Made by a program: the position numbers and the translations under genes. From IMG/VR virus record IMGVR_UViG_3300025030_000076, positions 1 to 64,000 of that record: 64,000 nucleotides of DNA. The stretch is one strand, 5' to 3'. This stretch comes from a virus. The notes beneath the pieces are model-generated. The model was not told where the DNA came from and did not search any database. It worked only from the letters and a program-made list of their open reading frames with translations. This document shows, one piece after another, positions 14,039-57,043 of this stretch (its first letter is position 1; the number at the start of each line of letters is the position of its first letter).

Positions 14039-14053
14039 AATTGAATATACTTA

Positions 14054-26185: not shown

Positions 26186-26193
26186 ACGTGACG

Positions 26194-28993: not shown

Positions 28994-29021
28994 TTGACAT
29001 ATACCCGACGTCGGGTATAAT
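28994..29021 (+). promoter_or_regulatory. strong promoter overlapped by 20-bp perfect palindrome
   Basis: TTGACA (28994-28999) and TATAAT (29016-29021) are 16 bases apart. TATACCCGACGTCGGGTATA (29000-29019) is a perfect palindrome filling the spacer and most of the -10, so a bound dimer would block transcription of the 29052-30035 pair. Confidence 0.75.
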
Positions 29022-41220: not shown

Positions 41221-42333
41221 TTATAAAAGTTTTGGGCTTTCCGGTTCTGCGCTCACGGCTTCCATCTGGAAATCATGGGCAAGCACAATCCTGGCGGCTT
41301 CGACTTTCTCGTTCAGGATGGATTTTTCAATCACATAATCGAGTTGCTCTTTGGTCAACTCGCCCATAAACTTCTCTTTGCCGCCTTTGACTTTGACGAC
41401 AACCTGCTTCGCTTCGTCGTAGGTCATGGGGTGCAAGTCGGTTTCGGGTGGAAAATCTTTATCCAAATCGCCAGTGATGTCCTCCGGCTCTGCCTGTGCA
41501 GACAGGTCTTGCGTCACCGGAATATCCTCTGCCTCCACGTCAATCGGCTCATCTGCCCTCAATGCTTCCCTGAGTTGCGGAGAGTGTTCGATGCCGCTCT
41601 TATCCGCCCAATTCAAAAGCGCACGCAGGACGGTTTTCATTTCCATCGTGGGGCGCTTCTTTGGGTCTTTCCAGTTTGGGTTTTTTATCTTCCCGTCGTC
41701 GTCTAAATAGTCTTTGACATAGTTCATGGCGTGTTCTTCGATCTCGACGCAGGACATATAGACGGACTTCTCAAACCCCTTCGTGGTCTTGTAGTAGCCA
41801 AGCCAGCCTATTACTTTCTTGCCCTGGTCGCGTCGCACAGTGACATTGCGGGAATATGCGGCGTTATAGGATTGCGGCTGACCCATAAATCCATTTTCCT
41901 CCTGTACCGCGTGCAGTCCGGTCAATGGGTTTTCAAACACCTGCTGGCCTTCATAGATCGGCGCAACGTTGATGATCCAGTACTTGTTCGTTCGCATAGC
42001 GAGGAAGTAAACCCCAAAATAATGAGGCTGAAATTGCGCTTCCTTGATCCACTTCGGGGTCTGCCCTTTCGGGGCAATGTTTCGATTGCGAGGGATAAGC
42101 CATGCCTGTTTTACGGCGGGGTCACAGGATAAACCGAGAGACGCGGCGCGCAAGGCGGCTCTATGAATGCTCTGCGGCGTGCATTGCATCAAGTCCTCTG
42201 TGGAGGACGCGGCAATGATTACGCTTTGCACATAAGGCGCGGCATCTTTTCCAAGCAGGTTGACAAAATCCTGGAAGTTGTCAGGCTGGCGGAGGTATTC
42301 GGTAACTGGATTTTTTACGATTGCATTTTGCAT
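41221..42333 (-). CDS. recT: RecT-family single-strand annealing protein (370 aa)
   Basis: Start MQNAIVKNPVTEYLRQPD (42333) follows AAAGGAATAAAC. The RecT core includes STEDLMQCTPQSIHRAALRA, ASLGLSCDPAVKQAWLIPRN, FQPHYFGVYFLAMRT and RPTMEMKTVLRALLNWADKS. The C-terminal 110 residues are acidic. It promotes annealing in phage recombination. No RecE-type nuclease gene is adjacent; the DEDD exonuclease at 30921 is 10 kb away. Confidence 0.85.
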   Translation of the reverse strand: MQNAIVKNPVTEYLRQPDNFQDFVNLLGKDAAPYVQSVIIAASSTEDLMQCTPQSIHRAALRAASLGLSCDPAVKQAWLIPRNRNIAPKGQTPKWIKEAQFQPHYFGVYFLAMRTNKYWIINVAPIYEGQQVFENPLTGLHAVQEENGFMGQPQSYNAAYSRNVTVRRDQGKKVIGWLGYYKTTKGFEKSVYMSCVEIEEHAMNYVKDYLDDDGKIKNPNWKDPKKRPTMEMKTVLRALLNWADKSGIEHSPQLREALRADEPIDVEAEDIPVTQDLSAQAEPEDITGDLDKDFPPETDLHPMTYDEAKQVVVKVKGGKEKFMGELTKEQLDYVIEKSILNEKVEAARIVLAHDFQMEAVSAEPESPKLL

Positions 42334-42358
42334 GATGTTTATTCCTTTCTTTCTGTGA

Positions 42359-42577
42359 TTAGGGTTCAATTTCAGGCACACTTGCGAACCACTCCGCCGA
42401 TCCAAAGACGGGAGGCGGTTGCGGCGCTCGTGCGGCGGCTCGCTCGGCTCGCTCCCGACTCAATGTGCGGGATAGGTGCGCCCATTCGCTCAGGTTCTCG
42501 TCGCAGTCGTCCGCTTCAAATGCGGCATGTGCGTAGAGTTCCAGGAATATCAACTCGAAATAATCGTTGTCGGTCAT
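42359..42577 (-). CDS. small acidic hypothetical (72 aa)
   Basis: MTDNDYFELIFLELYAHAAF, then an Arg/Ala-rich helix SRERAERAAARAP. Upstream of recT, overlapping the previous gene by four bases. Unknown. Confidence 0.55.
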   Translation of the reverse strand: MTDNDYFELIFLELYAHAAFEADDCDENLSEWAHLSRTLSRERAERAAARAPQPPPVFGSAEWFASVPEIEP

Positions 42578-43373: not shown

Positions 43374-43403
43374 TTGACAAATTCAATGTTCCTGCTTTAT
43401 AAT
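43374..43403 (+). promoter_or_regulatory. rightward promoter ahead of the cassette array
   Basis: TTGACA (43374-43379), 18 bases, TATAAT (43398-43403). It serves three small genes and, with no terminator recognised before 44066, possibly the cassette array. Confidence 0.7.
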
Positions 43404-43695: not shown

Positions 43696-43850
43696 CCCGC
43701 CTCACCTTCGACCCTCCCTCCGAATCCCCGGACGGCGATCCCGTCTGCCGGATATGCGATCACGAGATGGAGTACAACCCACTCACCCGCGAGTGGGAAT
43801 GCGTCCAGGATCACGACGCGCTGGAAAACGAAGATGAAATACCGACCTGA
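43692..43850 (+). CDS. small CxxC protein (52 aa)
   Basis: MTRLTFDPPSESPDGDPVCR leads into CRICDHEMEYNPLTREWEC, a zinc-ribbon-like unit. ATGA overlap with the preceding gene. Confidence 0.6.
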   Translation: MTRLTFDPPSESPDGDPVCRICDHEMEYNPLTREWECVQDHDALENEDEIPT

Positions 43851-44028
43851 TCTCACGGACTACCTGCCTTGCATCGAAGCACTTGCAGATAAATTGAATG
43901 AGGATGCGATCTACAAAATGAGCAGGACTGATGCGGTAAAAATCGCCCTGGAAAAGGCACTTGAGAAAGTCGTGCCTGATGTTGTAATAAACAAAAAGCG
44001 GAAAAGGTACATCAAGCTGGATTTTTGA
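43834..44028 (+). CDS. small hypothetical (64 aa)
   Basis: MKYRPDLTDYLPCIEALADK, a helical middle with AVKIALEKALEKVV, and a basic KKRKRYIKLDF end. Last gene before the cassettes. Unknown. Confidence 0.6.
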   Translation: MKYRPDLTDYLPCIEALADKLNEDAIYKMSRTDAVKIALEKALEKVVPDVVINKKRKRYIKLDF

Positions 44029-44035: not shown

Positions 44036-44072
44036 TGCGACGATGTACACTCCGCTCATACCCTAGTTAGAC
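44036..44072 (+). other. left boundary of the cassette array (attI-like or partial attC)
   Basis: A GAGTG/CACTC inverted repeat is followed by GTTAGAC (44066-44072), which fits the GTTRRRY core. Downstream, every cassette begins at such a core. No clear RYYYAAC partner was found, so it could be an insertion site or a worn attC. Confidence 0.4.
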
Positions 44073-44114
44073 CCCTGTCTTGCTGGCAGGGTATCACCCA
44101 AAAGGAGAAAAAAC

Positions 44115-44402
44115 ATGAGCGCAGCAAGTGATTTGATTGAACGAATGGAACGCGAAACAGGTCTGCGGATTGATTCTGATGACCCAAACAATATGGCAAT
44201 GGCTGGTTTATTCGGCGCAGTTGCCCGCATGATGGGCAAGTCAAGCCACGATGAGCGCGATGATGTTGTGGCTGGTCTCTTGGTCATGCACCAAATGACC
44301 CCAGAGTATCGCAATGAACAAGAGAGTAAACAAATGATTGCTTCTCTTTTGTCCAGTGGTCTCTCCCCTGATGATATTCGCAATATGTGGGGCGGGGTCT
44401 AA
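44115..44402 (+). CDS. cassette 1 protein (95 aa)
   Basis: AAAGGAG precedes the ATG. Helical protein: MSAASDLIERMERETGLRID, then DERDDVVAGLLVMHQMTPEY. The stop TAA lies inside the GTCTAAC half-core of attC1, typical of integron cassettes. Unknown function. Confidence 0.7.
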   Translation: MSAASDLIERMERETGLRIDSDDPNNMAMAGLFGAVARMMGKSSHDERDDVVAGLLVMHQMTPEYRNEQESKQMIASLLSSGLSPDDIRNMWGGV

Positions 44403-44487
44403 CAAACGCTTGCAGTGGACTTGGCGGTACGGTGTGTCTTTTTGCGAAGGTTACGAACCGCCAAGCCACTAAAGCGAACCGTTCGGC
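44397..44487 (+). repeat. attC-like site 1 (91 bp)
   Basis: GTCTAAC (44397-44403) and GTTCGGC (44481-44487) ends. Inner arms GTGGaCTTGGCGGT and ACCGCCAAGCCAC pair with one unpaired A, as in true attC hairpins. Confidence 0.75.
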
Positions 44488-44519
44488 GGCTACCTTGCCA
44501 GCCGAGAAGTGAGAAATAA

Positions 44520-44753
44520 ATGGGTATTTATGAATGTAGTTGTTTGCCAGCAAATCTAAGCCCAAGCGGTGAATTTGAGTTGTGCGAAGTTTGCCGCCTG
44601 GAAGAAGAAAACGAAGATGATAACGCCGCCGAACAAAGCCTGCACCTGACGCTTGGGAGTCTGCGCCTAAAAAAGCAGTTTCCAAGCCGAAAGTTTTATC
44701 CACATCTCAAACCTTATCCAAGCCCACCAAGCGCAGGTAAAGCACACCGTTAG
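44520..44753 (+). CDS. cassette 2 protein (77 aa)
   Basis: MGIYECSCLPANLSPSGEFE with CEVC; the rest is basic and runs through attC2 to a stop at its right core. RBS AAGTGAG upstream. Possible zinc-binding N-terminus; the attC-coded tail may be non-functional. Confidence 0.55.
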   Translation: MGIYECSCLPANLSPSGEFELCEVCRLEEENEDDNAAEQSLHLTLGSLRLKKQFPSRKFYPHLKPYPSPPSAGKAHR

Positions 44754-44755
44754 GT
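44628..44755 (+). repeat. attC-like site 2 (128 bp)
   Basis: GCCGAAC (one base off RYYYAAC) and GTTAGGT ends. Arms ACCTGaCGCTTGG and CCAAGCGCAGGT pair with one unpaired A. Confidence 0.7.
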
Positions 44756-44760
44756 GGCTT

Positions 44761-45387
44761 ATGGCTAAATTTGATACGAAGTTTGCACACGCAAGAGAAG
44801 ATTGGGAAACTCCCGATAGTATCTTCAAACCGTTGGAGGCTGAATTTGACATCGTGATTGATGTTTGTGCTTCCGAGCATAACAAGAAGTGTTCACTAAG
44901 ATATACCATTGAGGAGAATGGTCTTTTGCAAGATTGGTCACAGTGGCATGCGTGTTGGATGAACCCGCCATTTGGTCGGCAATCTGTGTGGGTCAAAAAG
45001 GCTTACACGGAAAGCCTGCGAGGAGCAACGGTTGTCTGTCTACTTCCTGCCCGCACTAATACTAATTGGTGGCACGACTTTTGCATGAAAGGCACGGTTC
45101 GCTTTTTGCGTGGTCGTCCCATCTTTGTCGGAGCCAAACATGGTTTACCCCAGCCGTTGGCTGCTGTGATGTTGAGCGCCAGTGTGCTCGCGGCCGCATT
45201 GGTCAGGGTCAGAATGTTTGTGGCGGGTGGGATGATTGCCGCCGCCGTGATGTGCATTGTCATATTCCAGCCACCTAACACATGCGTGCAGTCGGACGGG
45301 GCTTACTGTGCGTGCAAAGAAGGGTTATCCTTCACGGTGGCGAATGGCACAAATTATTGTCTTGCGTGCGGTCAGCCCCGCCGCTAA
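44761..45387 (+). CDS. cassette 3: phage-type Dam N6-adenine methyltransferase (208 aa)
   Basis: DWETPDSIFKPLEAEFD, DVCASEHNKKC, WMNPPFGR and LLPARTNTNWWHDF match the phage Dam family, with NPPF as the catalytic motif. The family region ends near residue 135. A hydrophobic stretch follows (VRMFVAGGMIAAAVMCIVIF), then a CxC/CxxC tail encoded within attC3. The hydrophobic segment does not look like a normal Dam C-terminus, so a frameshift or fusion is possible. Confidence 0.75.
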   Translation: MAKFDTKFAHAREDWETPDSIFKPLEAEFDIVIDVCASEHNKKCSLRYTIEENGLLQDWSQWHACWMNPPFGRQSVWVKKAYTESLRGATVVCLLPARTNTNWWHDFCMKGTVRFLRGRPIFVGAKHGLPQPLAAVMLSASVLAAALVRVRMFVAGGMIAAAVMCIVIFQPPNTCVQSDGAYCACKEGLSFTVANGTNYCLACGQPRR

Positions 45388-45402
45388 CGCAAGCCGTTAG
45401 CT
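45273..45402 (+). repeat. attC-like site 3 (130 bp)
   Basis: ACCTAAC (45273-45279) and GTTAGCT (45396-45402), both fitting consensus. Arms CGGaCGGGGCT and AGCCCCGCCG with one unpaired A. The loop encodes CAC and CLAC. Confidence 0.8.
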
Positions 45403-45425
45403 GGCACTTTGCAAAGGATGTAATT

Positions 45426-45590
45426 ATGAGTATTGTCAGACCGCACGGAAGCAGTACCAAGATTTTTCGTGAACTACGTAAAACAAGATGTATTTTTTGT
45501 GGGTTCGGCGTGAAACTTGTTGTCAGGAAAACTGGCAACAAAGTCGAGAAAGTATGTCCGAAGTGTGGCAGGAAGTTTCAGAGGTCATGA
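45426..45590 (+). CDS. cassette 4: small zinc-ribbon protein (54 aa)
   Basis: Start MSIVRPHGSSTKIFRELRKT (45426) has AAAGGA upstream. CIFCGFG and CPKCGRK give a full zinc ribbon. It ends just before attC4. Confidence 0.7.
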   Translation: MSIVRPHGSSTKIFRELRKTRCIFCGFGVKLVVRKTGNKVEKVCPKCGRKFQRS

Positions 45591-45594
45591 AGCG

Positions 45595-45684
45595 GGCTAA
45601 CAAATGCGTGCAGGCGACATGGGTGGGCGGCGGTCAAAATCGGACAGTCATAGCCACCCATGCGCCTAACGCAAGCCGTTCGGC
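45595..45684 (+). repeat. attC-like site 4 (90 bp)
   Basis: GGCTAAC and GTTCGGC ends (each one base off). Arms GGCGaCATGGGTGG and CCACCCATGCGCC pair with one unpaired A. Confidence 0.75.
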
Positions 45685-45713
45685 GGCTACCTTATAGCCA
45701 GAAGGAGCAAACA

Positions 45714-45983
45714 GTGAAAATTTTAGGTGATACTATCGTGTGTAAGATCATGCACTCTCAATACTGTTTTTCGTGTGGTCGCCATTTGGCAACTGCCAAA
45801 ACAACCAAAGCCACCGAAAAGATTGTTTTGAAAAATGGCGGCTCGATCCGTAAAGATGGTTTTTATCGTGCGTACTGCGCGTCCCATGTGCCGCCCAACA
45901 CGGCGTGCAGCGGATTGGCGGATGAATTATTACCCGGTATTGCGTTGCCCGAATGGATTTTGAGAAATCCCGCCAACCGCTAA
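45714..45983 (+). CDS. cassette 5 protein with CxxC (89 aa)
   Basis: GTG start at 45714 after AAGGAGCAAACA. CFSCGRH followed by a basic middle and YCASH could bind zinc. The C-terminal 28 residues are encoded by attC5. Unknown. Confidence 0.6.
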   Translation: MKILGDTIVCKIMHSQYCFSCGRHLATAKTTKATEKIVLKNGGSIRKDGFYRAYCASHVPPNTACSGLADELLPGIALPEWILRNPANR

Positions 45984-45998
45984 CGCAAACCGTTAGCC
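45893..45998 (+). repeat. attC-like site 5 (106 bp)
   Basis: GCCCAAC and GTTAGCC, both consensus. Arms CGGaTTGGCGG and CCGCCAACCG with one unpaired A. Confidence 0.8.
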
Positions 45999-46022
45999 CG
46001 CTCTTTCGGGCAAGGAAAATCA

Positions 46023-46136
46023 ATGAACAAGAAACGAGAACTAATATTTATCACAGTATGGCTGGCTGGAGTCATAGGTTTGGTTTTGGTTGTATTACAG
46101 CTTCGCCAAATTTGTCCGTGTTGGTGGCTACCATGA
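46023..46136 (+). CDS. cassette 6: tiny membrane protein (37 aa)
   Basis: MNKKRELIFITVWLAGVIGL plus a further hydrophobic run ends at a CPCWW tail. AAGGAAAATCA precedes the ATG. One TM helix. Confidence 0.6.
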   Translation: MNKKRELIFITVWLAGVIGLVLVVLQLRQICPCWWLP

Positions 46137-46140
46137 AGCG

Positions 46141-46265
46141 GTCTAACAATGCGTGCAGTTGACGGCGGGAAGGCTCCCGGCTGTACATGCAACGCCTACC
46201 AATTAGAGAACTTCGGTTGTAAATGTGGTGCGGCAACCCGCCGCAACTAACGCAAACCGTTGGTG
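46141..46265 (+). repeat. attC-like site 6 (125 bp)
   Basis: GTCTAAC and GTTGGTG (right core degenerate). Arms GTTGaCGGCGGG and CCCGCCGCAAC with one unpaired A. The loop holds a 33-aa frame (46149-46250) with CTC and CKCG. Confidence 0.75.
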
Positions 46266-46290
46266 CGGACTTAGTTAGGAAAGGTAAAAT

Positions 46291-46524
46291 ATGTATCTAA
46301 AACTCATGAATGATTACGAGGAAGAATTGAGACTAGCAGGAAGAAAAATTAAGGTAAACGATCATTTTGCAAGGTTTGATTTTGCAAGTTGGCTAGATAG
46401 ACAAGCCGCCCAACAACCGCTTGCACAGCCGACTGGTTGCTGGGCGTGTGGCGATAAAGGTATCATCCGCGCCGATGGTATCGCTATCAACTGTTCGGTT
46501 TGCAATCCCGCAACCAGCCGCTAA
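46291..46524 (+). CDS. cassette 7 protein with zinc-ribbon tail (77 aa)
   Basis: The helical N-half (MYLKLMNDYEEELRLAGRKI) comes before attC7. The C-half CWACGDKG...CSVC is encoded inside attC7. RBS AGGAAAGG. Unknown. Confidence 0.65.
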   Translation: MYLKLMNDYEEELRLAGRKIKVNDHFARFDFASWLDRQAAQQPLAQPTGCWACGDKGIIRADGIAINCSVCNPATSR

Positions 46525-46538
46525 CGCAAGCCTTGGGC
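46408..46538 (+). repeat. attC-like site 7 (131 bp)
   Basis: GCCCAAC and CTTGGGC (first base of right core changed). Arms around CTGGTTGC / GCAACCAG. Confidence 0.65.
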
Positions 46539-46558
46539 GGAAGCCCTGCAAGGTAAAC

Positions 46559-46759
46559 GTGAAAGAAAGTTTTTGTGAATGCAATCACCCCCAAAGGTTT
46601 CATGGTACGCACTTGTCTGATGATACTTATGATGGTGCTTGCGTGCGTCAAACCTGCAAATGCCGTAAATTCCGCCCAACAAAGCGTGGGCTTTGGGCGT
46701 GGGCTAATTATCGTATTGGTGAATTTGTGTGGTCTTGCCGAGCGTGGTTGGATGTATAA
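46559..46759 (+). CDS. cassette 8: Cys-rich protein (66 aa)
   Basis: GTG start (46559) after AAGG. CECNHPQRFHG and CVRQTCKCRKF form a C-C-H...C-C-C pattern, also seen in cassette 12 (CQYCKHSIDEH, GICDCNH). Probably zinc-binding. Confidence 0.6.
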   Translation: MKESFCECNHPQRFHGTHLSDDTYDGACVRQTCKCRKFRPTKRGLWAWANYRIGEFVWSCRAWLDV

Positions 46760-46790
46760 ATCGCCAGCCAGTAATGCAAGACCATTGGAC
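46674..46790 (+). repeat. attC-like site 8 (degenerate, 117 bp)
   Basis: GCCCAAC left core is clear; the right end ATTGGAC has one change and the inner arms pair poorly. Confidence 0.5.
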
Positions 46791-46811
46791 AGTGCGCTGT
46801 AAGGAGTAGAA

Positions 46812-47075
46812 ATGAACGTTGATTTAGAAAAAGAGATCGACACTGTTGCGGAATTCTGCTGTGACAATCCTAACTATAATGAGTTGCGCGAAGAAATTGC
46901 AACTCTTGTCCGTAAATATCATCAAATTGCTGGAGACTTGGCGTTGGAGGTTTGGAGATTGAGCCGCCCAACTACGGGTGCAGTTGACTCGGCGGAGATT
47001 CCCGAAGTTTTCAACCTGCAACCAAAAGTGATTGCAAAAGGTCGTATTGTGTTCGATGACCCGCCGAGCAACTAA
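46812..47075 (+). CDS. cassette 9 protein (87 aa)
   Basis: AAGGAGTAGAA before ATG. Acidic helical N-half (MNVDLEKEIDTVAEFCCDNP, then IATLVRKYHQIAGDLALEVW); the last 36 residues are encoded by attC9. Unknown. Confidence 0.65.
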   Translation: MNVDLEKEIDTVAEFCCDNPNYNELREEIATLVRKYHQIAGDLALEVWRLSRPTTGAVDSAEIPEVFNLQPKVIAKGRIVFDDPPSN

Positions 47076-47084
47076 TCGTTAGCT
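46966..47084 (+). repeat. attC-like site 9 (119 bp)
   Basis: GCCCAAC and GTTAGCT, both consensus. Arms GTTGaCTCGGCGG and CCGCCGAGCAAC with one unpaired A. Confidence 0.8.
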
Positions 47085-47108
47085 GGCTCTTCAAGAAAGA
47101 AGGTAATC

Positions 47109-47321
47109 ATGGAAAAATGTGATCGTTGTGGTAAAAAAGTAAAGGTGTATCCAACTCATTATTCGGCATGGAATGAACTTTGCCTGCCGTGTATCAAACT
47201 CATGGGGCTTGGTTTGCCTGAAATGCAACCAGCTAACAAAAGCGTGGAGCCGACTTGTCCAAACTGCGGCGAACCATTGCATTATCACCCTACCGCCGAC
47301 TGCAAAGTAGCCCGCTCTTGA
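47109..47321 (+). CDS. cassette 10: double zinc-ribbon protein (70 aa)
   Basis: CDRCGKK and CLPC in the N-half; CPNCGEP and C in the C-half, which lies in attC10. AAGAAGG upstream. Likely zinc-binding. Confidence 0.65.
   Translation: MEKCDRCGKKVKVYPTHYSAWNELCLPCIKLMGLGLPEMQPANKSVEPTCPNCGEPLHYHPTADCKVARS
47231..47313 (+). repeat. attC-like site 10 (worn, 83 bp)
   Basis: AGCTAAC left core; the right end GCAAAGTAGCCC looks like a deleted version of GCAAACCGTTAGCCC. Inner arms do not pair well. Probably inactive. Confidence 0.45.
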
Positions 47322-47332
47322 AAGGATAGGTT

Positions 47333-47545
47333 ATGAACTATACAAAAGCGAATCAGGCTCTTGCTAATGAGTTCGGCGCAGGTCAGGTCGAAGTCCATAA
47401 GGCAAAGAAGGGTGATCCGTGGGAATACACACTCTGGTTCTTGGATGATGATCCTGCGCCTGGCGTAATCGAGAAGGCTAAGAAAATCGTTGGTCGCTTC
47501 GAGCCGTCTCGGTGGTTCGATAAGTTGAAATTCCATTCCGAGTAG
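47333..47545 (+). CDS. cassette 11 protein (70 aa)
   Basis: MNYTKANQALANEFGAGQVE continues with a beta-rich PWEYTLWFLDDDPAPG and a helix. GAAAGGATAGGTT before ATG. It ends before attC11. Unknown. Confidence 0.65.
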   Translation: MNYTKANQALANEFGAGQVEVHKAKKGDPWEYTLWFLDDDPAPGVIEKAKKIVGRFEPSRWFDKLKFHSE

Positions 47546-47547
47546 CG

Positions 47548-47675
47548 GGCTAACACGGGCTTGCACAGGGACGGCTTGCCAGCCGAACATCGCGTGCAGT
47601 GGACTTTGGCTACTGTGTGGCAAATTTTTTGTGGCTCTATATCGCCGCCAAAGCCACTAACGCAAACCGTTGGGC
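47548..47675 (+). repeat. attC-like site 11 with extra left half-site
   Basis: A complete site runs 47582-47675 (GCCGAAC, arms GTGGaCTTTGGC and GCCAAAGCCAC, GTTGGGC). A further GGCTAAC half-site at 47548-47554 precedes it, as if a cassette was lost between them. Confidence 0.7.
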
Positions 47676-47702
47676 GGACTAGCTCAACAGAAAGATTTTG
47701 AA

Positions 47703-47927
47703 ATGAATTGTCAATATTGCAAACATTCGATAGACGAGCATGATAGTGGGGGATGTCATCGTAAAATTGACGGCGGTATCTGCGATTGTAATCATTCCCC
47801 AAACTATATCGCCGCCCAACAAATGCGTGCAGGCGACTTGGCTACTGGTTGCCCGTTCTGCGGTGTCTCCGCCGAAGATATTGCATTGCTCAATGAATCG
47901 CTTGCGCGTGAAACGCCAAGCGTCTAA
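47703..47927 (+). CDS. cassette 12: Cys/His-rich protein (74 aa)
   Basis: MNCQYCKHSIDEHDSGGCHR then GICDCNH; the C-half with CPFCG is encoded in attC12. Resembles cassette 8 in cysteine pattern. Probably zinc-binding. Confidence 0.65.
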   Translation: MNCQYCKHSIDEHDSGGCHRKIDGGICDCNHSPNYIAAQQMRAGDLATGCPFCGVSAEDIALLNESLARETPSV

Positions 47928-47943
47928 CCCAAGTCCGTTGGGC
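47814..47943 (+). repeat. attC-like site 12 (130 bp)
   Basis: GCCCAAC and GTTGGGC, both consensus. Arms GGCGaCTTGGC and GCCAAGCGTC, one unpaired A and one wobble. Confidence 0.75.
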
Positions 47944-47972
47944 GGACTACCCGACTTTGAAAGGAAAATAAA

Positions 47973-48161
47973 ATGTCAGACGAGAAAAAACAAGTAGTAA
48001 TTCACAGGGATGGCTCTGTGACCGAGCAAAGAAGTAATGATCTTCCAATTGTTTTGCTGCCATCAAAGCAAACCGCCCAACACGGCGTGGAGCCGACTGT
48101 TTGTCCTAAGTGCGGTCACGCTGTTGGTGGTCATAATGCACTTTGTCCAATTGGTAATTAG
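47973..48161 (+). CDS. cassette 13 protein with zinc-ribbon tail (62 aa)
   Basis: MSDEKKQVVIHRDGSVTEQR; the tail CPKCGHAVGGHNALC is encoded in attC13. GAAAGGAAAATAAA before ATG. Possibly zinc-binding. Confidence 0.6.
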   Translation: MSDEKKQVVIHRDGSVTEQRSNDLPIVLLPSKQTAQHGVEPTVCPKCGHAVGGHNALCPIGN

Positions 48162-48186
48162 TGGCGGCTCACGCGCCCCGTTGGGC
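48075..48186 (+). repeat. attC-like site 13 (112 bp)
   Basis: GCCCAAC and GTTGGGC, both consensus. Arms GCGTGgAGCCG and CGGCTCACGC. Confidence 0.75.
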
Positions 48187-48213
48187 GGACGCTCCGCCAG
48201 GAAGTGAGGAAGC

Positions 48214-48435
48214 ATGAAAATTTGTGATGCTTGCGGAAAAGCATGTTATAGTTTTGCAACTTACAAAATATGTAGGCATATTGTTTGTAGCCGTCACGAA
48301 TATCCAGAAAGTTGCCCTGTGTGCGCCGCCCAACACGGCGTGCAGCGGACGACTGATGACGTCCGCGAAAATGTTGGTGTTTCTGAAAATGGTGAACTGC
48401 ATTCAGTAATGCGTGGAACAACCCGCCGCCGCTAA
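48214..48435 (+). CDS. cassette 14: zinc-ribbon protein (73 aa)
   Basis: CDACGKAC and CRHIVCSRH, CPVC give several zinc-binding pairs in the first 40 residues; the rest is encoded by attC14. GGAAGTGAGGAAGC before ATG. Confidence 0.65.
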   Translation: MKICDACGKACYSFATYKICRHIVCSRHEYPESCPVCAAQHGVQRTTDDVRENVGVSENGELHSVMRGTTRRR

Positions 48436-48451
48436 CGCAAGTCCGTTGGGC
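48328..48451 (+). repeat. attC-like site 14 (last, 124 bp)
   Basis: GCCCAAC and GTTGGGC, both consensus. Short arms GCGGaCG and CGCCGC. Right end of the array. Confidence 0.7.
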
Positions 48452-48457: not shown

Positions 48458-48484
48458 AGCCCCCACTTAGGGGGCTTTGTGTTA
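48458..48484 (+). terminator. terminator at the right end of the cassette array
   Basis: AGCCCCC (48458-48464), ACTTA, GGGGGCT (48470-48476), then TTGTGTT. Confidence 0.65.
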
Positions 48485-48555: not shown

Positions 48556-49044
48556 ATGGAAGAGATTTTAACACGCTTTTGTCCAAGGTGCGGGGTAGAG
48601 CATAAATTATCGGAATTCAAAAGAGAACCCAAGCCAGGTAGATACCCAGGGTCATGCGTTTACAGCGGACGAGATGCGCGTATTTCTAAACCACCTAAAA
48701 CAAAAACAACAAAACCGCCTCCCGTTTATCTAGACGCCAGTTATCTTCCAAAAAAGAGGGTGGTAGGGTTATTTCCGCGTATTCAGACAATATTTTCCCA
48801 TTCTTACCGCGCTCGCGCCAACGGCAACAATGGGAAAATCATATATCAGGAATGGGAGGATCTGAAAGAAAAATATAACAATACCTGTCTGTGTTGTGGC
48901 AGACGATCTCCTGAAGTCGAAATAACTCTTGACCACGTACTCCCCTTGAGTATGGGGGGTAGGAATACTATTGAGAACGCCCAGCCGCTTTGTCTTTCTT
49001 GTAACTGCAAGAAAAGCACGAAATACATTGATTATCGCCCCTAA
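48556..49044 (+). CDS. HNH endonuclease (162 aa)
   Basis: CPRCGVEHKLSEF at the N-terminus, then a linker and the HNH core CLCCGRRSPEVEITLDHVLP, NAQPLCLSCNCKK. A complete HNH domain with a four-cysteine zinc site. It lies between the cassette array and the tail genes, with its own promoter. Confidence 0.85.
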   Translation: MEEILTRFCPRCGVEHKLSEFKREPKPGRYPGSCVYSGRDARISKPPKTKTTKPPPVYLDASYLPKKRVVGLFPRIQTIFSHSYRARANGNNGKIIYQEWEDLKEKYNNTCLCCGRRSPEVEITLDHVLPLSMGGRNTIENAQPLCLSCNCKKSTKYIDYRP

Positions 49045-49274: not shown

Positions 49275-49817
49275 CTATCTTACAAACACCTGCACCCAGC
49301 CCAGCACGTTCGTCGGATCTGTCACCCAGGTCGGCGTTACCCACTTGATCTCGAAATAATCCCCGGCCACTACCGCAATAGAGAGCGCCGTGTTTTGCAC
49401 GTGGAACGGCGACGCGTTCAAAGCCACGGCGCTTGAGATGGTTGTATCGGTCGTATTATTCAGGCGGAATGAGATTGTGCTTGTCTCACTCGTCCCGGTC
49501 GTGGCAACCAAAAAAACATCAGCGGCGACTACCGTCCCGGCGCGCATGACGTAAAGCCGCTGTATGGCTGCGGTTGTCCCAAGCGCTACATGCGGGAACG
49601 CGCCGAAGTAATAAGTCGTTGCATCAGCAGGATTGACGGAGGCGAAGCCCGCCGGGATTGCATAGCATCCCGCAACGGTGCGAGTATAGGTGGCGATGGA
49701 GGACACGAGCGCGACTTGGTTGCCCGAAATAGGGAATACTTCCGTTCCAACCAGCGTTGTCTTTTCGCCTGAGGGCGCGCCTGTGGTTGTGTTGGTGCTT
49801 ATATATCTGTTTGTCAT
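49275..49817 (-). CDS. tail-tip or fibre component (180 aa)
   Basis: Beta-rich, Thr/Ala-rich protein with a C1q/TNF-like feel: AVVAGDYFEIKWVTPTWVTD near the end. Last gene of the right-hand structural module. Possible receptor-binding or baseplate upper part. Confidence 0.5.
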   Translation of the reverse strand: MTNRYISTNTTTGAPSGEKTTLVGTEVFPISGNQVALVSSIATYTRTVAGCYAIPAGFASVNPADATTYYFGAFPHVALGTTAAIQRLYVMRAGTVVAADVFLVATTGTSETSTISFRLNNTTDTTISSAVALNASPFHVQNTALSIAVVAGDYFEIKWVTPTWVTDPTNVLGWVQVFVR

Positions 49818-49825
49818 GTAATCTC

Positions 49826-50047
49826 CTATGACCAGTTGATATGATCGCCGCTGTCATAGACGATAAAATCATCATTATCCCAAAGCAACTCAGCGCCCAG
49901 CACCGCCACTTCCGCCGGTCTGCCGTTGGACCAGCCCCCGGCCACGATGCGGGATACCGGCTCAAAGGTGAGCGGCGCGGAGAGATTGGTAATCATCTCG
50001 CCTATGGCGTGGAAGCCGATCCCGTCAAAGCCGATCATTTCAGCCAC
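49826..50047 (-). CDS. small tail-region protein (73 aa)
   Basis: MAEMIGFDGIGFHAIGEMIT, then a beta-rich end. Overlaps the upstream gene by 13 bases. Unknown. Confidence 0.5.
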   Translation of the reverse strand: MAEMIGFDGIGFHAIGEMITNLSAPLTFEPVSRIVAGGWSNGRPAEVAVLGAELLWDNDDFIVYDSGDHINWS

Positions 50048-50757
50048 GCCTCTATCTGCACGTCATTGATAATCGTGTTCGCGTTCGCGCCCAAGTGGTT
50101 GTCGAATTGAAAACTAACCGCCTGCGTTGTTGTAACGTTGAACAGGAACGGGCCAAGAAAAATTGTATCTGCCAGGATGCCCATCGCGGTCGTGTATCCT
50201 TTGCGGGTTCCCTGCCCGTATTGGTTGCACTCGACATGGACATAACCATTGAAAGCCGACGCCGCGTCGAATGTGACGTGCATGGAGATACTCGCCCAGC
50301 ATGGATAATTAATCGTGATTACGTCGCTTGCCAGCGTTGCTAGGCCGTGTTCGTCTGTCCACTCGGTATCTACATCCAGCAGCGCATTATCCACTGTATC
50401 ATTGACCACCAATGTCGATCCGTAATAGGCTGCAAAGACCGGCAAGTCCTTTCTGCTAGGACAAATGTAAACTTCGGATAATCCCGTCAATACAATCTTT
50501 GCCCCGGCATTTGTTGATGATTCTACCGTTGTGCGTGCCACTGTATTTGTTGCAGTGTTATATGCCCCCAAACTTATCTCGGAGTGTGTCGGGCGGTTGG
50601 ATGTTGTCGAGTAGGTGATGATCCCAAAGCGCACGACTTCGCCGTTTGTGATCCCAGCCAGTTCCCAGGTATTGCAGCCGGGAACCGCGCCGGTAAGGAC
50701 ACAGTCGCTTGTGCCTGTGGTAGTTGAGTATTCTCTAGCTAAGTTTCTATATGGCAT
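50035..50757 (-). CDS. receptor-binding-like tail protein (240 aa)
   Basis: The N-terminal half (REYSTTTGTSDCVLTGAVPG, WELAGITNGEVVRFGI) is typical of phage tail-tip modules. The C-terminal half is a jelly-roll-like beta domain. Likely part of the host-recognition apparatus. Confidence 0.55.
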   Translation of the reverse strand: MPYRNLAREYSTTTGTSDCVLTGAVPGCNTWELAGITNGEVVRFGIITYSTTSNRPTHSEISLGAYNTATNTVARTTVESSTNAGAKIVLTGLSEVYICPSRKDLPVFAAYYGSTLVVNDTVDNALLDVDTEWTDEHGLATLASDVITINYPCWASISMHVTFDAASAFNGYVHVECNQYGQGTRKGYTTAMGILADTIFLGPFLFNVTTTQAVSFQFDNHLGANANTIINDVQIEAWLK

Positions 50758-50788
50758 AAGTTCTCCATGAGTTTTCTAAACGGGTGGG

Positions 50789-51628
50789 TTATCTGGTATC
50801 CAGCCGCACGATTGCAAGCGAGCTTGTCAGGTCAACCGAGCCGTCGGCATTTCTAAAATTAACTGTCAGTGATGTCGTATGACTTGCTGTTTTATGGATA
50901 ATGATCGTCCTGAATTCAGGCAAGAAATCTGTGCCTGATCTGACAAAATGAAAGCGCGGATTACTGACACCGCCACTATCCAATTGTGTGGCAAAGTGCA
51001 TGTATAGATCATTTGTGGCGGTTGGTGGCGTGTTCCATGCTGTTGTAGCTTCTGTTCTATAAGTAATTGCATAAGTTCCTGGTACGGCCAGTGTGACCGT
51101 GCTGCCGGAAGTCCAACTCATCGAAGTCCCGGATTGGAATTGAATTGCGCTCCAGCTAATCGCCTGGTTGAATGAATTCAGGGTCTGGGATGCAGCCGAT
51201 AAAACCAGTGTATCTTTTGCTACTGCGGTTCCCATTGCCCCGGCCAGTTCCCCGGTATTGGTAAATCCATATTGCAACACGCCGTTTTCGTCCATCACGA
51301 CGAACGGGTAGGTATTGCCGTCTGAGAGCGTGAAGCCGAGCGACGAGAAACTCACGCCGGGAGGCGGTATCAGCGTCCCGTATTCGGTCTGTGTCCAGCC
51401 CTCTACTCCCATATAGATGACGTTGCCCACCCAGCCGACCTGCTGGGACAAATCCGAGAGTTGGTTCACCTGGACAATCGCCGCTTCCAATTCCGCGACC
51501 CTCTGTTCCAAGTCCTTGATACGGTTAAGGGCGTTGCCCGTGTAACCGACTAAATCAGATGGCGAGATGGCGCAGACGCCCGTATCTGTGGAAGAACCGC
51601 CGCCGCCGCTCTCATTCACGATTGCCAT
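50789..51628 (-). CDS. tail fibre-like protein with coiled coil (279 aa)
   Basis: A Gly-rich start is followed by a coiled coil, NRIKDLEQRVAELEAAIVQV, then beta-rich domains, the last resembling C1q-like heads. One base is shared with the previous gene. Probably trimeric. Confidence 0.6.
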   Translation of the reverse strand: MAIVNESGGGGSSTDTGVCAISPSDLVGYTGNALNRIKDLEQRVAELEAAIVQVNQLSDLSQQVGWVGNVIYMGVEGWTQTEYGTLIPPPGVSFSSLGFTLSDGNTYPFVVMDENGVLQYGFTNTGELAGAMGTAVAKDTLVLSAASQTLNSFNQAISWSAIQFQSGTSMSWTSGSTVTLAVPGTYAITYRTEATTAWNTPPTATNDLYMHFATQLDSGGVSNPRFHFVRSGTDFLPEFRTIIIHKTASHTTSLTVNFRNADGSVDLTSSLAIVRLDTR

Positions 51629-52692
51629 TAGATGATCTCCAAATTAAGCGGTGCTTTGCCTATTGTCAGGTCGTTGTAATCCAGTGATAATATCCGCGCG
51701 GCTGCGCTAAACCCGAAGCCCCCGCCGGGCTTGAAACCAACTGTATTATCTCGCACGGTGATGGTATTGCCCGCCGCCAAACTGTCAAAAGTCTTGCCAA
51801 TATCCAGCGCGACGCGATGAAGTTTCATGCGCGGCGGCGAGTTATCCGCCGCTGTCTGCGCGGCGTTGGTAAGGGATGTTTGATCCGTGATGCCGGAGAA
51901 AACGATATTGGTCGCCAGCACCCCATATTTATCCACTGATGCCTGATTGACCCCCTTTGCGAAATAACGGCTCTCTTTCGTGGATGCCTGGGAATATCCG
52001 TAGATGACGTTATATGGTGTTCCCTGTTCCGTCAGGAGAGGCCCGCTGCCCTCGACATTGTCTCTTGTCAGTTCCAGGCGCGTGACCGCGCCCTTGCGCC
52101 TGTACAGGTTGGCGTATAGTTGCAGATTGCCGCGCCCATCTATCTGCCCGGTCACGTCCCAATCCATGCCGGAATTGGCACATAATTTTTTGATGTGGTC
52201 ATAGGCGGACGTGGCGAGGCTATCCCCGAACGTTTCGGGGATGTCCTCAATAACTCCCGGCTGAATGACAATATCGTCTGTAATCGTGTGTGCCATGTCC
52301 AGCATCTGCTTGAACATGCTCCCTGGTGTGCCGCTTATCTTGGTCAGCGGCATGGGGCGAAAGGTTAATATCGCTTCCGCGCTGTATGCGGTTGCGTTCA
52401 GAATCTTGTCAGGCCAATTCCTATCAGGCAGGATGATACCCGTCCAGTCCGGTAATTTCCCGTTTGCTGTTCCCGCCGCGTCCTTGGACGGGATATGTTC
52501 CACGAATACAAGGTTACCGTATTGCATGACCGTTTCTTCTTTTGGCGTGAACTTGTCCTTGAGATATGGCAAGCCTACGGAAAACTCCGCCTTGCCGAAG
52601 CTGTTCAGGAGCCATGAGCGTGGCGTCGTTGGTGCTTCTAGAAAACACAAAGGTTTGGAAAAATGGTCGAATATTCTCAAATTGCTAGGCAT
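51628..52692 (-). CDS. tail hub protein, Gp37-like (354 aa)
   Basis: LRIFDHFSKPLCFLEAPTTP, LRNSFGKAEF-like GKAEFSVGLPY and a C-terminal domain with RDNTVGFKPGGGFGF match the siphovirus Gp37/tail-hub type that joins distal tail and fibres. Follows the distal tail gene across a small plus-strand insertion. Confidence 0.6.
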   Translation of the reverse strand: MPSNLRIFDHFSKPLCFLEAPTTPRSWLLNSFGKAEFSVGLPYLKDKFTPKEETVMQYGNLVFVEHIPSKDAAGTANGKLPDWTGIILPDRNWPDKILNATAYSAEAILTFRPMPLTKISGTPGSMFKQMLDMAHTITDDIVIQPGVIEDIPETFGDSLATSAYDHIKKLCANSGMDWDVTGQIDGRGNLQLYANLYRRKGAVTRLELTRDNVEGSGPLLTEQGTPYNVIYGYSQASTKESRYFAKGVNQASVDKYGVLATNIVFSGITDQTSLTNAAQTAADNSPPRMKLHRVALDIGKTFDSLAAGNTITVRDNTVGFKPGGGFGFSAAARILSLDYNDLTIGKAPLNLEII

Positions 52693-52696
52693 GTGT

Positions 52697-52702
52697 TAAA
52701 AT
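52697..52702 (+). promoter_or_regulatory. extended -10 of the 52709 gene
   Basis: TGT-TAAAAT with the ATG only seven bases downstream, so the transcript would be leaderless or start in the codon. Confidence 0.45.
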
Positions 52703-52708
52703 TTATCC

Positions 52709-52978
52709 ATGAAAAAGACATTGCACGGTAAAAGATACTTGCGCTCCAGGGCCAGCGTTCAATTTGGTAGGCGCAAAAAAGCAGAACAAAAATTCGAGCG
52801 GCTCATATTCTTTCTTAACCAAATCCCAAAAATGGTAGAGGTTATTAGCGAAGGGCTTGTAGAACTTTCCAACGCTATACAAGAAGTCATGGAAAAAGTG
52901 CGAGTAATTTACATTGATAAACTTCATAACATCTATGATCCTACAGGGTTCTATCGCGATGAATCACATGCACGGTAA
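52709..52978 (+). CDS. plus-strand inserted gene, helical (89 aa)
   Basis: Very basic N-terminus (MKKTLHGKRYLRSRASVQFG), then a long helix VEVISEGLVELSNAIQEVME. It lies opposite the late operon between tail-hub and distal-tail genes and overlaps the latter's end by 38 bases. It may be a small homing-type or regulatory insertion; no HNH motif. Confidence 0.5.
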   Translation: MKKTLHGKRYLRSRASVQFGRRKKAEQKFERLIFFLNQIPKMVEVISEGLVELSNAIQEVMEKVRVIYIDKLHNIYDPTGFYRDESHAR

Positions 52979-54857
52979 CGGCGTTGCTGCCCACATCGTC
53001 GTATTGCAGGGTACTCGCGCCGGGAGATAAATCCAGCCATTCGGCGCGGTCGGTGGATAGCGTCACATTGACCCGCGAGCCGTCTGAGAGATACGCATCC
53101 TTAACTTCGCAGTCAATTGTCACCGTCTCATTCAGGAAGCAAGGCACGGCGCACTTAATATATTCCGTGCTTGTATTGTTGGTGATCGTAGCATCGAAGT
53201 AATACGCCGCCGCCTCAGCCCCTACCGCAATGGTTGGCAGGTTGGAACTCGAAAAGGTGACGGTTACCGTGTCGAATTGAGCCAGTGCCATCTCGCTGAT
53301 GGCAGATGACAGCAGGCCATCGATTACAAAGCGGATCGCGGAGGGGTAGGGAGATGCAAGGTTGGCAGTCGTGGGGCCAAAACTCTGCCAGGAATAAGTA
53401 ACGGTCGGTTCGGCCTGGTTGTCAGCCGTGAACCATACGGCATTTGTCTGGAGATATTGAAGCCCTACAATGGCAGGCCACGAGCCACTCATATACTTAT
53501 CACCCGAAAACAAAACAGTCGTGATCGTGGCGGGGTGGGAGAATATCCAATCCAGCGTACCTGTCTCATTCTGTACCTGGAAGTCCGCACTCCCTATCAA
53601 TGCCAGCCCCAGGGATGTGGACGGGTCAGCAAATGTATTATCCGGCGCGGTATAGACGTATGACAGGCCTGTTCGGGATGATAATACCTCCCCTTTCCAC
53701 ATGCCCGTGCGTGCGCCGGTTGCCTGAAAATAGTTAGTAAGCACCCATGCCCCGTTTGTGGACGCGAGTGAGCACATCGGCTTGTTATCATTGTCCACAT
53801 CCGGGGCGGTCAATGTGCTATCCCCGTAGAGTATCCAGATGTCATGCTCGATCCAGCGTACAGTTTTCGGCGCGGTGTGCGCCGCGATGGTCGTATCTTT
53901 TTTGGTACGTGTTACACCTGTCAATTGATAGGTTACCAGATTGGCGCCTGTAAATGTAAATGCCTCCGAATCGATCAGCACGACCTTGTTGACCGCCGCT
54001 GCCATCGCGTGTAGAAATTCCAGGTTAGCTTTTGTTTTTGATAGCGTGATGGTCGTGATCGCCCCGCTGCCCGCTATGCTGGTATTCGTCGTCCCTTCAC
54101 GGCGCGGCCCCAGGTTTAGATTGACCCAACATTTCGTCGTTGCCGTATCCATGTCCTGAAGCCATCTATCTACAAAGACCCCATCCACAAGCACCAGGAA
54201 ATCATCCCCGTCTGCCTGCATCTTGGCAGTGGTGAGTGTCGCCGTATCCAGCCCGCCATTAGTAATGTCCAGCGGCGCAATATAGGATATATCCATATTG
54301 TTATAAATCGGTATCCAGCGCCGATAACTCAGCCCGCCCGTTTTCGCGCTGGTGGGGGTCAGGGTCAGCTTCGGCCCGATCTTGCGGTTACCTGCGTTGG
54401 TGATCGCCTGCGTCTGCCCGGATGCCGTTACACTCCAACTGGTATCGGTCGCCGTGACAAGTTTCCAGTATGGATACTCGATCTGGAATAAGACCATGAA
54501 GGAATTTTTATTCGTTCCCTCATTTCGGACGTCGCGTACAAAGCCGGTCACGTACCACTGCGTTCCGCTTGCTCCATTCTCCGCAATCAGATTATGACGC
54601 TGCCCGTCCTCAAAATTGAAATACTGCTTGAGTAGTTCCCGATTGGTGTCAATATCCTGTCCCGCTGCAATCCTCACCCGGATTATAAGAGACTGCGGAT
54701 CTGCTACGATCCCCGATACATAGGGATAGTTATCTGCGCGCGGAACGGTAACGACGTTGCCGTGTATATTGACCTTTGAGCCGGGTGGGAAATCGGAATA
54801 GAACGGCGAGCCGTTGTTGATGCTAATCCCGTTCCACGTCAATAGAAGCAGATTCAT
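52941..54857 (-). CDS. distal tail protein (638 aa)
   Basis: Starts MNLLLLTWNGISINNGSPF. The first 150 residues resemble the distal tail protein core (QYFNFEDGQRHNLIAENG, FMVLFQIEYPYWKL). The remaining 480 are beta-rich insert domains, possibly carbohydrate-binding, making it large for the family. ATGA overlap with the tape measure. The other copy begins at the left window edge. Confidence 0.7.
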   Translation of the reverse strand: MNLLLLTWNGISINNGSPFYSDFPPGSKVNIHGNVVTVPRADNYPYVSGIVADPQSLIIRVRIAAGQDIDTNRELLKQYFNFEDGQRHNLIAENGASGTQWYVTGFVRDVRNEGTNKNSFMVLFQIEYPYWKLVTATDTSWSVTASGQTQAITNAGNRKIGPKLTLTPTSAKTGGLSYRRWIPIYNNMDISYIAPLDITNGGLDTATLTTAKMQADGDDFLVLVDGVFVDRWLQDMDTATTKCWVNLNLGPRREGTTNTSIAGSGAITTITLSKTKANLEFLHAMAAAVNKVVLIDSEAFTFTGANLVTYQLTGVTRTKKDTTIAAHTAPKTVRWIEHDIWILYGDSTLTAPDVDNDNKPMCSLASTNGAWVLTNYFQATGARTGMWKGEVLSSRTGLSYVYTAPDNTFADPSTSLGLALIGSADFQVQNETGTLDWIFSHPATITTVLFSGDKYMSGSWPAIVGLQYLQTNAVWFTADNQAEPTVTYSWQSFGPTTANLASPYPSAIRFVIDGLLSSAISEMALAQFDTVTVTFSSSNLPTIAVGAEAAAYYFDATITNNTSTEYIKCAVPCFLNETVTIDCEVKDAYLSDGSRVNVTLSTDRAEWLDLSPGASTLQYDDVGSNAVTVHVIHRDRTL

Positions 54858-57043
54858 ACGCCGCCGCCTAATTGCCCGCTGGTCGCTGCGATGAACGGGT
54901 TGGGATAAATGCAGTCATAAGCAATTTCTCCCCACGAGCCGACGTTGATCGTCGCGCCCGCGAAGTATTGATTGACGACCGTTCCCGTTCCGCTGCCAGT
55001 CCCGCTGCCAGTCCCGCTGCCTGTCCCACCACCAATCGGGATGGGTGTGGGATTGGTCAAGCTGCTGATGTCGATACCAAGCAGGTTCAATATCGGCTCG
55101 AAGGGGGCTAGTAATAATGCAACGATGTTTTGAATTGTATTTATCAACCAGGCCGTTGCAGCGGTAAGACCAGCCACCAATCCCGCAACGATGTTGACGC
55201 CAATTTCCATAAAGACGGTTGATGGACTGGAAATGCCTAGCCATTTCTTTATAGGGTCGATGATTTTCTCATGTACCCATTTGTCAGCATCCCAAGACCA
55301 ATCGAAATCCACAGCCTTTTGCCAACCTTGAGAGATAGCTTCTCCTATTTGTCGCCAATCATCAGTGCCAACAATAAAATCCACTATTTCTACAAAGAGA
55401 AAGGTGAGCATATCCATGAAACCTGTCGCGATTTCTCCAAGAGTGTCTAATGAAGCAAGAACGACATAACTCCACATGTCTGCAAAGCCGATACCGATTG
55501 CTGCCCAGTCAGCATTAGCAATCATATTTGGAATACTTAATACAAGATAGCTCCACATATCGGCAAAGCCAATACCGATTGCAGTCCAATTTTCCTGGCT
55601 TGTAACTTGATCTAACATTCTTTGCCAGAAAACCTTCCAACTAGGAAAGAAATCTGCCAATCCCATAGCACCAAAGAACCAGTCGCTGATTGCCTGACCA
55701 ATAGCAGGAACGGCTTCCGATTCATTGCTCTCTATACCTGCTCCAAATGCTGCAAGTAGCGCATCTCCGAACGCATCACCAGATGCCGTCCAATCGTGAA
55801 GTTTTATCGCCTCCGCCAGCTTAACGTCAATCTCGTCCGTCAAATCAACAACCCAAGTAGCAATATCTTCTATTGGTATACTTGCGAGAACAAAGCCAAT
55901 TACACCTATAACATCACCCTCACCAAAAGCATCTTTTAAATCTAAAATATACTCAAGAACTCCAGCTAATGGACTGCCAGAACCACCTAACCTGTCTGCC
56001 GCTGTAATCAATGCGCCCCAGAGCGTATCACCATTATCAAGAGCCTGCTGAATAATTCTCAATGCTGTTCCAAGATCATAGAAGATTGGATTTACATCTT
56101 TCCACGATTGCATCGCAGCACCAAGATCATATAATTTGACTATATCGCCGCTTACCAGTTTCATAAAAATATCAACTAATTCTGCAAACCCCTCACCTGC
56201 GATTGCAGCAATTCTCCCAATATCTTCCAGGATTGGACGCAAAGTACCGCCTTCTGAGACAGCCTTACCAAACCATTTAGCAAGATCGGCAATAGCAAAA
56301 ATGACAGTTCCAAACGCCTCCTGAAATGGTTCACCAATAGCGACCATGATGTCATCGAAGTATCGGGGAAATGAGCGCAATACTTTTCCAGGCTCTTCCA
56401 TTGCAGCGGCATACGCGCCTGCAATCCCTACGCCTGCTTCCAATACCTCATTCAATGCTATCTGCTGCTTTTCGGCAGTGGTCAGGCTTTCTGTTGTTCT
56501 ATCGTTTTCATCCGCCCATTCTTTGTATGCCAATTGTAGATCAACGACAATCCCGGCATGGCGCAATACAAGCGGGTTGAGAGTTTCAATACCATATACA
56601 ATATCTTTTAGAGTCTGACTTGAATTTTGTCCTGCAATAACTGCTGCATCCTGAGCAATACGAGCAATGTCAGTAGCATACGCTAAATCGAGTTCTGCAC
56701 CAATAAACGCCGCGATTGTTGTTTCGGCAATTCCCGCTTCGATACCCATACTGCGAATTGATGTCGCTATCTTTTCAAGATATAACGCCGGAATTCCAGC
56801 AGTTTCTCCTAAAACCTGATTGACTACTCTAAGTTCATCTACGCGTGCGGCGGTAAGGATGGCTTCCTGTCCAAACGCAATAACCGGCGTAAGCACAGCA
56901 TCAATTGCACCGGCAGCCAAGTCAAGAGCCGATTTGATACCAGTGACGATATTTCCGAAGTCGCCGAATGATCCAACTATTCCCCCCATAACTCCCGAAA
57001 ATTCGTCCTTCCCCGTTATCACTATCTCTACTTCGGCAGCCAT
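54854..57043 (-). CDS. tail tape measure protein, second copy (729 aa)
   Basis: MAAEVEIVITGKDEFSGVMG is close to the first copy's start and the ends are near-identical, while the middle is largely different and 64 residues longer. Repeated ADWAAIGIGFADMWSYVVLA-like units occur near residue 520. It lies below the HNH insertion and the chaperone. Confidence 0.85.
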   Translation of the reverse strand: MAAEVEIVITGKDEFSGVMGGIVGSFGDFGNIVTGIKSALDLAAGAIDAVLTPVIAFGQEAILTAARVDELRVVNQVLGETAGIPALYLEKIATSIRSMGIEAGIAETTIAAFIGAELDLAYATDIARIAQDAAVIAGQNSSQTLKDIVYGIETLNPLVLRHAGIVVDLQLAYKEWADENDRTTESLTTAEKQQIALNEVLEAGVGIAGAYAAAMEEPGKVLRSFPRYFDDIMVAIGEPFQEAFGTVIFAIADLAKWFGKAVSEGGTLRPILEDIGRIAAIAGEGFAELVDIFMKLVSGDIVKLYDLGAAMQSWKDVNPIFYDLGTALRIIQQALDNGDTLWGALITAADRLGGSGSPLAGVLEYILDLKDAFGEGDVIGVIGFVLASIPIEDIATWVVDLTDEIDVKLAEAIKLHDWTASGDAFGDALLAAFGAGIESNESEAVPAIGQAISDWFFGAMGLADFFPSWKVFWQRMLDQVTSQENWTAIGIGFADMWSYLVLSIPNMIANADWAAIGIGFADMWSYVVLASLDTLGEIATGFMDMLTFLFVEIVDFIVGTDDWRQIGEAISQGWQKAVDFDWSWDADKWVHEKIIDPIKKWLGISSPSTVFMEIGVNIVAGLVAGLTAATAWLINTIQNIVALLLAPFEPILNLLGIDISSLTNPTPIPIGGGTGSGTGSGTGSGTGTVVNQYFAGATINVGSWGEIAYDCIYPNPFIAATSGQLGGGV

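Follow-up and report, generated by a model that had tools for sequence, protein, structure and literature searches.

Introduction

Clusters of attC sites lacking integron-integrases (CALINs) have been described in several phages, TJE1, P12002L and PH101 among them (Qi et al. 2023, PMC9892861), and phage-borne attC sites recombine with IntI1 in the laboratory (PMC9892861). Here we report on an array of integron-type gene cassettes at positions 44066–48451 of a 64,000-nucleotide stretch of viral DNA (hereafter the window; positions 1 to 64,000 of the 80,305-base IMG/VR record IMGVR_UViG_3300025030_000076). Like the phage CALINs of that work, it is devoid of an integrase gene, carries its sites in one orientation and includes a DNA methyltransferase cassette (PMC9892861). 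The arrays detailed there are short (three attC sites in TJE1) and reside in separate phages, whereas the array in the window has 14 sites, is found again at this locus in sibling phages, where the cassettes have turned over, and starts at a phage-type attI-like site that is conserved, together with a small leader gene, across many contigs. The CALIN of Shewanella prophage M16-3 also lacks an adjacent intI, and it starts at an attI (PMC9892861), but there the attI belongs to the host genus and the prophage holds a complete integron as well; the site in the window is unlike both of the intI-adjacent starts that we could read and is almost missing from host-class genomes. Integrons on Anaerolineae chromosomes (for example, L205, L207 and L209) share the attC family of the array and combine intI and cassettes in one genome, which sets them apart from it, as do the starts of arrays behind intI where these could be read (L186 and L187), in which neither the leader gene nor TGTACATTC is found. 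Phage CALINs are thus known, but an attI module that is specific to phages and recurs among them appears to be new, as we found no description of one in the open-access literature. We propose that the array is probably an integrase-less phage integron platform: an exchangeable accessory locus worked by an integron integrase (IntI) acting in trans.

Results and Discussion

The array comprises 14 complete attC sites, all on one strand and in one orientation as the first-pass annotation of the window had it, and one further half site. The same annotation assigned 14 genes each a site of their own, and the count of complete sites stands, with these corrections: most cassettes hold one small gene in the orientation of the array, but the open reading frame (ORF) of cassette 8 is ambiguous, cassettes 11 and 12 are fused, and several ORFs extend into or past their own attC. 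The array begins with the junction box GTTAGAC at 44066, the partner of which is the first R'' box, GTCTAAC at 44397. A generic scan for paired arms with RYYYAAC and GTTRRRY ends returns nine sites between 43.9 and 48.6 kb. The rest of the record (75.6 kb) has none, and dinucleotide shuffles give 0.1 sites each; with a stricter cut-off, seven sites are found in the array stretch and again none elsewhere. In phage TJE1, the attC sites of which have been verified with IntI1 (PMC9892861), the scan picks up two, as a positive control. The arms pair into a hairpin in which a single A, always at the same position, stays extra-helical, with 87.6% of cells paired versus 73% upon shuffling and 22–42% for slid pairings. 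Covariation between the arms, taken from the window array and that of a sibling phage and aligned as arms (full-length alignment with MAFFT misaligned them), amounts to 0.371 against 0.118 for shuffled arms, a value reached in 0 of 500 shuffles. The covariance-model search that the annotation had called for finds 13 array sites at E ≤ 1e-7 and one weak site (46674–46790, E 0.1) and misses a degenerate site near 47232–47313; the model was trained largely on these arrays, so that matches inside them are not independent while matches elsewhere are. With all elements at the coordinates given by the annotation, the integron-type array is confirmed. The bottom strands of several sites are moreover predicted to fold as expected for IntI substrates. 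An Rfam scan at gathering thresholds gave no match, nor did a similarity search of the array DNA against phage and plasmid records, which indicates that there is no near relative among isolates. The attC family is carried by dozens of IMG/VR contigs, and the earlier remark that phage-borne arrays are rare needs qualifying to this extent.

An integron cassette takes its first bases from the 3' box of its attC, so that its opening and closing boxes should match. This was assessed on 23 cassettes, from the phage bearing the array and a sibling (phages B and A, respectively, see below), with four variable bases per box and with cassette boundaries read by eye. Opening R' and closing R'' boxes of the same cassette match at 80 of 92 variable positions; shuffles average 60 of 92, with none out of 20000 reaching 80, and the box at the next junction also matches at 60 of 92, no better than chance. 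This same-cassette match is the footprint of circular-cassette insertion and is hard to explain otherwise. Because the fused cassette at 47307–47668 holds half an attC as well as a complete site, about 15 cassettes appear to have entered the array, of which 14 complete sites remain.

Positions 2–26,300 of the record resemble positions 54,808–80,305 at 69–97%, and positions 1–26,430 are identical to contig 3300025087_000082 (phage A), which is 56,426 bases in length with a 115-base terminal repeat and which, being terminally redundant, we consider complete. The record is best read as the late genes of phage A fused to the whole of a second, ~54-kb phage B, with the joint at ~26.3–26.45 kb (window 26316–26446), where ~130 bases are identical in both phages. 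Tandem prophages behind the duplicated late genes were considered as well and rejected in favor of an assembly fusion, as phage A is complete by itself and the joint falls within the ~130-bp identity. Structural genes would be counted twice in annotations that take the fused record for a single genome. The array, which is on phage B, is retrieved with both phage flanks at 99.99–100% identity in two other assemblies (3300025012_000842 and 3300025326_000151). Phage genes lie on either side of it, and complete phage A has an array at the same locus, all of which upholds its assignment to a phage region. Phages A and B have terminases that are 98% and capsids that are 93% identical, and phage A carries at this locus about 9–10 attC sites with almost wholly different cassettes. 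The sole overlap is the last cassette of phage B, of which the attC and the C-terminus of the ORF are 91% identical to those of a mid-array cassette of phage A. Phage C (3300044514_000014; terminase 78–79% identical) has an array at the same locus too. Among more distant terminase relatives, most of which are fragmentary contigs, 48 of 50 yielded no attC of the window family with the covariance model, an outcome that, unlike the matches of the model inside the arrays, is independent.

The array opens at an attI-like site, GATGTACACTCCGCTCATACCCTAG|TTAGAC (44042–44072, plus strand, with the R box at 44066), that is conserved at the first cassette junction in many phage contigs. Its consensus, ATGTACATTCYG...TAG|TTRRRY, is kept across phages that otherwise share little. 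Scanning IMG/VR with this motif alone, thus with no attC information, gave 34 stretches, 20 of which continue with same-strand attC sites of the window family, 13 of which do not and one of which is cut off. A sample of 396 genomes from the class to which an Anaerolineales genome belongs contains the motif once, with no attC behind it, which is about chance level. The leader gene (43834–44028, plus strand, 64 amino acids) ends 13 nt before the motif, and homologs of 64–69 residues are often found directly upstream of the motif in many other phage contigs. A scan of IMG/VR with the leader protein yielded 11 loci, three contigs being new, all with an array directly behind the leader and ten with the motif, while the same search, which finds the leader in phage contigs (positive control), gave no match in the 396 host-class genomes. 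In all, the putative array start site is common to about twenty further virus contigs, often along with the leader gene and almost never with an integrase gene. The leader protein shows weak similarity, below cut-off, to the ribbon-helix-helix-type family PF07704 and matches no functional family in PHROGs; its predicted structure consists of two helices (pLDDT, the predicted local distance difference test score, 75) with no fold match in the PDB. A single in-frame TAG interrupts the leader gene in two contigs (G019, locus L133, 1854–2051, minus strand; G023, 2406–2600, plus strand), which may point to a pseudogene or to reassignment of the stop codon. Four contigs seem to carry two attI-like motifs, at loci L298/L308 (G521), L294/L307 (G520), L162/L299 (G046) and L286/L306 (G517), most of these with separate arrays.

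Searches for tyrosine integrases (PF00589) in the record and for integron integrases (TIGR02249) in phages A and C and in contig G002 of phage B were all negative, in keeping with the earlier observation that no integrase gene accompanies the array, which in having no integron integrase nearby is a CALIN rather than a complete integron. Such integrases do exist in bacteria with related sites. A 19-base attC signature was located in 55 genome stretches, the majority of them from Anaerolineae or other members of the Chloroflexota, and IntI scores above the curated cut-off in 21 of 36 genomes with the signature. Sites of the window family adjoin intI in several genomes (for instance, L205, L207, L209 and L214), and one host attC close to intI matches the attC of cassette 2 at 81% identity. 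The host is thus probably a member of the Anaerolineae (Chloroflexota). The two readable intI-adjacent starts (L186 and L187, from contigs filed as viral but with no terminase match) read ATGAG|TTRRRY just behind intI; an attI was sought in further host integrons from the intI end and no clear junction emerged. In contig G023 (locus L251), a divergent integron-integrase-like protein (871–1908, plus strand) is encoded beside the leader gene, attI-like site and array.

The first-pass annotation left open whether phage DNA had captured cassettes from a host integron or whether the phage uses host IntI. The evidence favors continuing use of IntI in trans: siblings have almost nothing in common in their cassettes, and the arrays of many unrelated phages open with a conserved attI-like site that hosts seem to lack. 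The platform would comprise a promoter, the small leader gene, the phage-type site, probably acting as attI, and a row of cassettes each ended by an attC. IntI would be supplied by the host, or rarely by a co-infecting phage, and might be induced by infection; it would recombine circular cassettes with the phage attI or with attC sites and excise others, allowing the phage to swap small accessory genes with host integrons and with other phages. The upstream promoter would express the first cassettes and the leader may assist or regulate, with anti-restriction (by the Dam methyltransferase) and host takeover by small proteins as likely cassette roles. On balance we also lean, with less assurance, to a more specific form of this proposal, namely that of a dedicated Anaerolineae-phage platform that, with its own attI and a leader serving it, parasitizes host IntI for rotating counter-defense or takeover genes.

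Several points weigh against this proposal. Phage A retains just the last bases of the attI-like motif, and one leader locus (L321) is without it. The motif, which holds the palindrome ATGTACAT, could also be an operator or a leader-gene end that is conserved, although it is found without the leader as well, in G514, G517, G518, G026, G027 and G046. The arrays in the three assemblies of phage B are identical and no within-strain recombination event is seen, the host assignment is founded on the attC family, and with G023 encoding its own divergent IntI-like protein some arrays may make use of phage enzymes.

Of the other explanations, the one that fares best, though we regard it as unlikely, is that of a bare CALIN: a piece of a host array captured once by illegitimate recombination and now decaying as passenger DNA, which is how earlier phage CALINs have been interpreted (PMC9892861). 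The degenerate sites (46674–46790 and 47232–47313) and the fused cassette would fit such decay, but the first junction is a conserved site in many unrelated phages, phages A, B and C hold their arrays at one locus with new content, and random capture of host fragments would not bring one particular site and leader to the left end of an array. A shade less likely still is a true phage integron in which the phage or a helper phage encodes the recombinase and intI was lost from most members. G023 (44 kb, with TerL present) argues for this, with a TIGR02249 match of 258 bits (cut-off 265) and leader, attI-like site and array all within 4 kb; at the sensitivity used, however, this protein stands alone in IMG/VR, and the other attI-bearing contigs tested, complete phage A among them, are all without one. 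That the hairpins are regulatory or terminator repeats of small phage genes is very improbable: several ORFs enter the sites, and attC sites can terminate weakly (cited in PMC9892861), but same-cassette R'/R'' pairing, a fixed extra-helical base and a family that adjoins intI in bacteria speak for recombination sites. Least credible of all is a prophage beside a host integron or a chimeric contig, since the joint at which the 80-kb record indeed fuses two phages is 18 kb from the array, the array and both flanks are found in two other assemblies, and terminally redundant phage A has an array at the same locus.

The cassettes, all on the plus strand, are as follows. Cassette 1 (44066–44480) contains an ORF of 95 amino acids (44115–44402) and its attC at 44397–44487, and cassette 2 (44481–44748) one of 77 amino acids (44520–44753; attC 44628–44755). 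Cassette 3 (44749–45395; attC 45273–45402) encodes a Dam N6-adenine methyltransferase of 208 amino acids (44761–45387; PF05869, E 9e-29; phrog_111, E 6e-45), a homolog of which with 63% amino acid identity forms a cassette of phage G040, although that phage is otherwise different, with a distant homolog in G036. Methyltransferase cassettes have been noted before in phage CALINs (PMC9892861), and the one at hand likely fits protection against restriction. Next come cassette 4 (45396–45677; ORF 45426–45590, 54 amino acids, zinc-ribbon-like; attC 45595–45684), cassette 5 (45678–45991; ORF 45714–45983, 89 amino acids; attC 45893–45998), cassette 6 (45992–46258; ORF 46023–46136, 37 amino acids; attC 46141–46265) and cassette 7 (46259–46530; ORF 46291–46524, 77 amino acids; attC 46408–46538). 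Cassette 8 (46531–46782) has a possible ORF at 46602–46802 and the weakly matching, degenerate attC, while cassettes 9 (46783–47077; ORF 46812–47075, 87 amino acids; attC 46966–47084) and 10 (47078–47306; ORF 47109–47321, 70 amino acids, zinc-ribbon-like; degenerate attC ~47232–47313) precede the fused cassettes 11 and 12 (47307–47668), in which an ORF of 70 amino acids (47333–47545) is followed by the half attC (~47548–47581) and the complete one (47582–47675). The row ends with cassettes 13 (47669–47936; ORF 47703–47927, 74 amino acids; attC 47814–47943), 14 (47937–48179; ORF 47973–48161, 62 amino acids, zinc-ribbon-like; attC 48075–48186) and 15 (48180–48451; ORF 48214–48435, 73 amino acids; attC 48328–48451). 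Methyltransferase apart, a PHROGs search of the cassette proteins tested revealed no convincing functional family, and several show a faint resemblance to small zinc-ribbon proteins.

Located 660 bp upstream of the array is a sigma-70 type consensus promoter, TTGACA-18-TATAAT (43374–43403, plus strand, 12 of 12 positions), which would drive a small plus-strand operon holding the array. Phage A has its counterpart at the corresponding position, with a 17-nt spacer, and phage C a near-consensus version. Perfect promoters number two in the window against none expected, the second (TTGACA-16-TATAAT, 28994–29021, plus strand) being in the early region of phage B. An intrinsic-terminator-like hairpin (48458–48483, plus strand) directly follows the last attC; such sites are as many as by chance, and only its position is suggestive. 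To the right, the array is flanked by an HNH endonuclease gene (48556–49044, plus strand; phrog_1035, E 3e-19), 100% identical in three other viral contigs, and then by tail-end genes (49275–57043, minus strand) that include the tape measure gene (54854–57043); to the left, the early region encodes a RecT-like annealing protein (41221–42405, minus strand; phrog_148, E 9e-38).

Elsewhere, both phages have in their late region a block resembling sugar or surface-glycan synthesis genes (window 11666–18903 in phage A, record 65467–72298 in phage B), with an epimerase, a DegT-type aminotransferase, a thiamine-diphosphate enzyme, a methyltransferase, a radical S-adenosylmethionine (SAM) protein and a short-chain dehydrogenase/reductase (SDR). 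Between the terminase genes of each lies a probable GIY-YIG homing endonuclease gene (window 25485–26204 and record 79466–80209, both minus strand), the two proteins being only ~42% identical next to terminases of >97%. At window 26598–27731 (minus strand), an ABC-type ATPase part is joined to an acetyltransferase-like part (phrog_11143).

Conclusions

The attI-like motif and the leader gene make simple search keys for further loci of this kind. If the proposal is true, there would be routine cassette traffic between hosts and phages, and small cassette genes become candidates for counter-defense. Integrons are regarded as bacterial gene banks; if phages keep a docking site of their own for the host integrase, the integron would also be an engine of phage adaptation.

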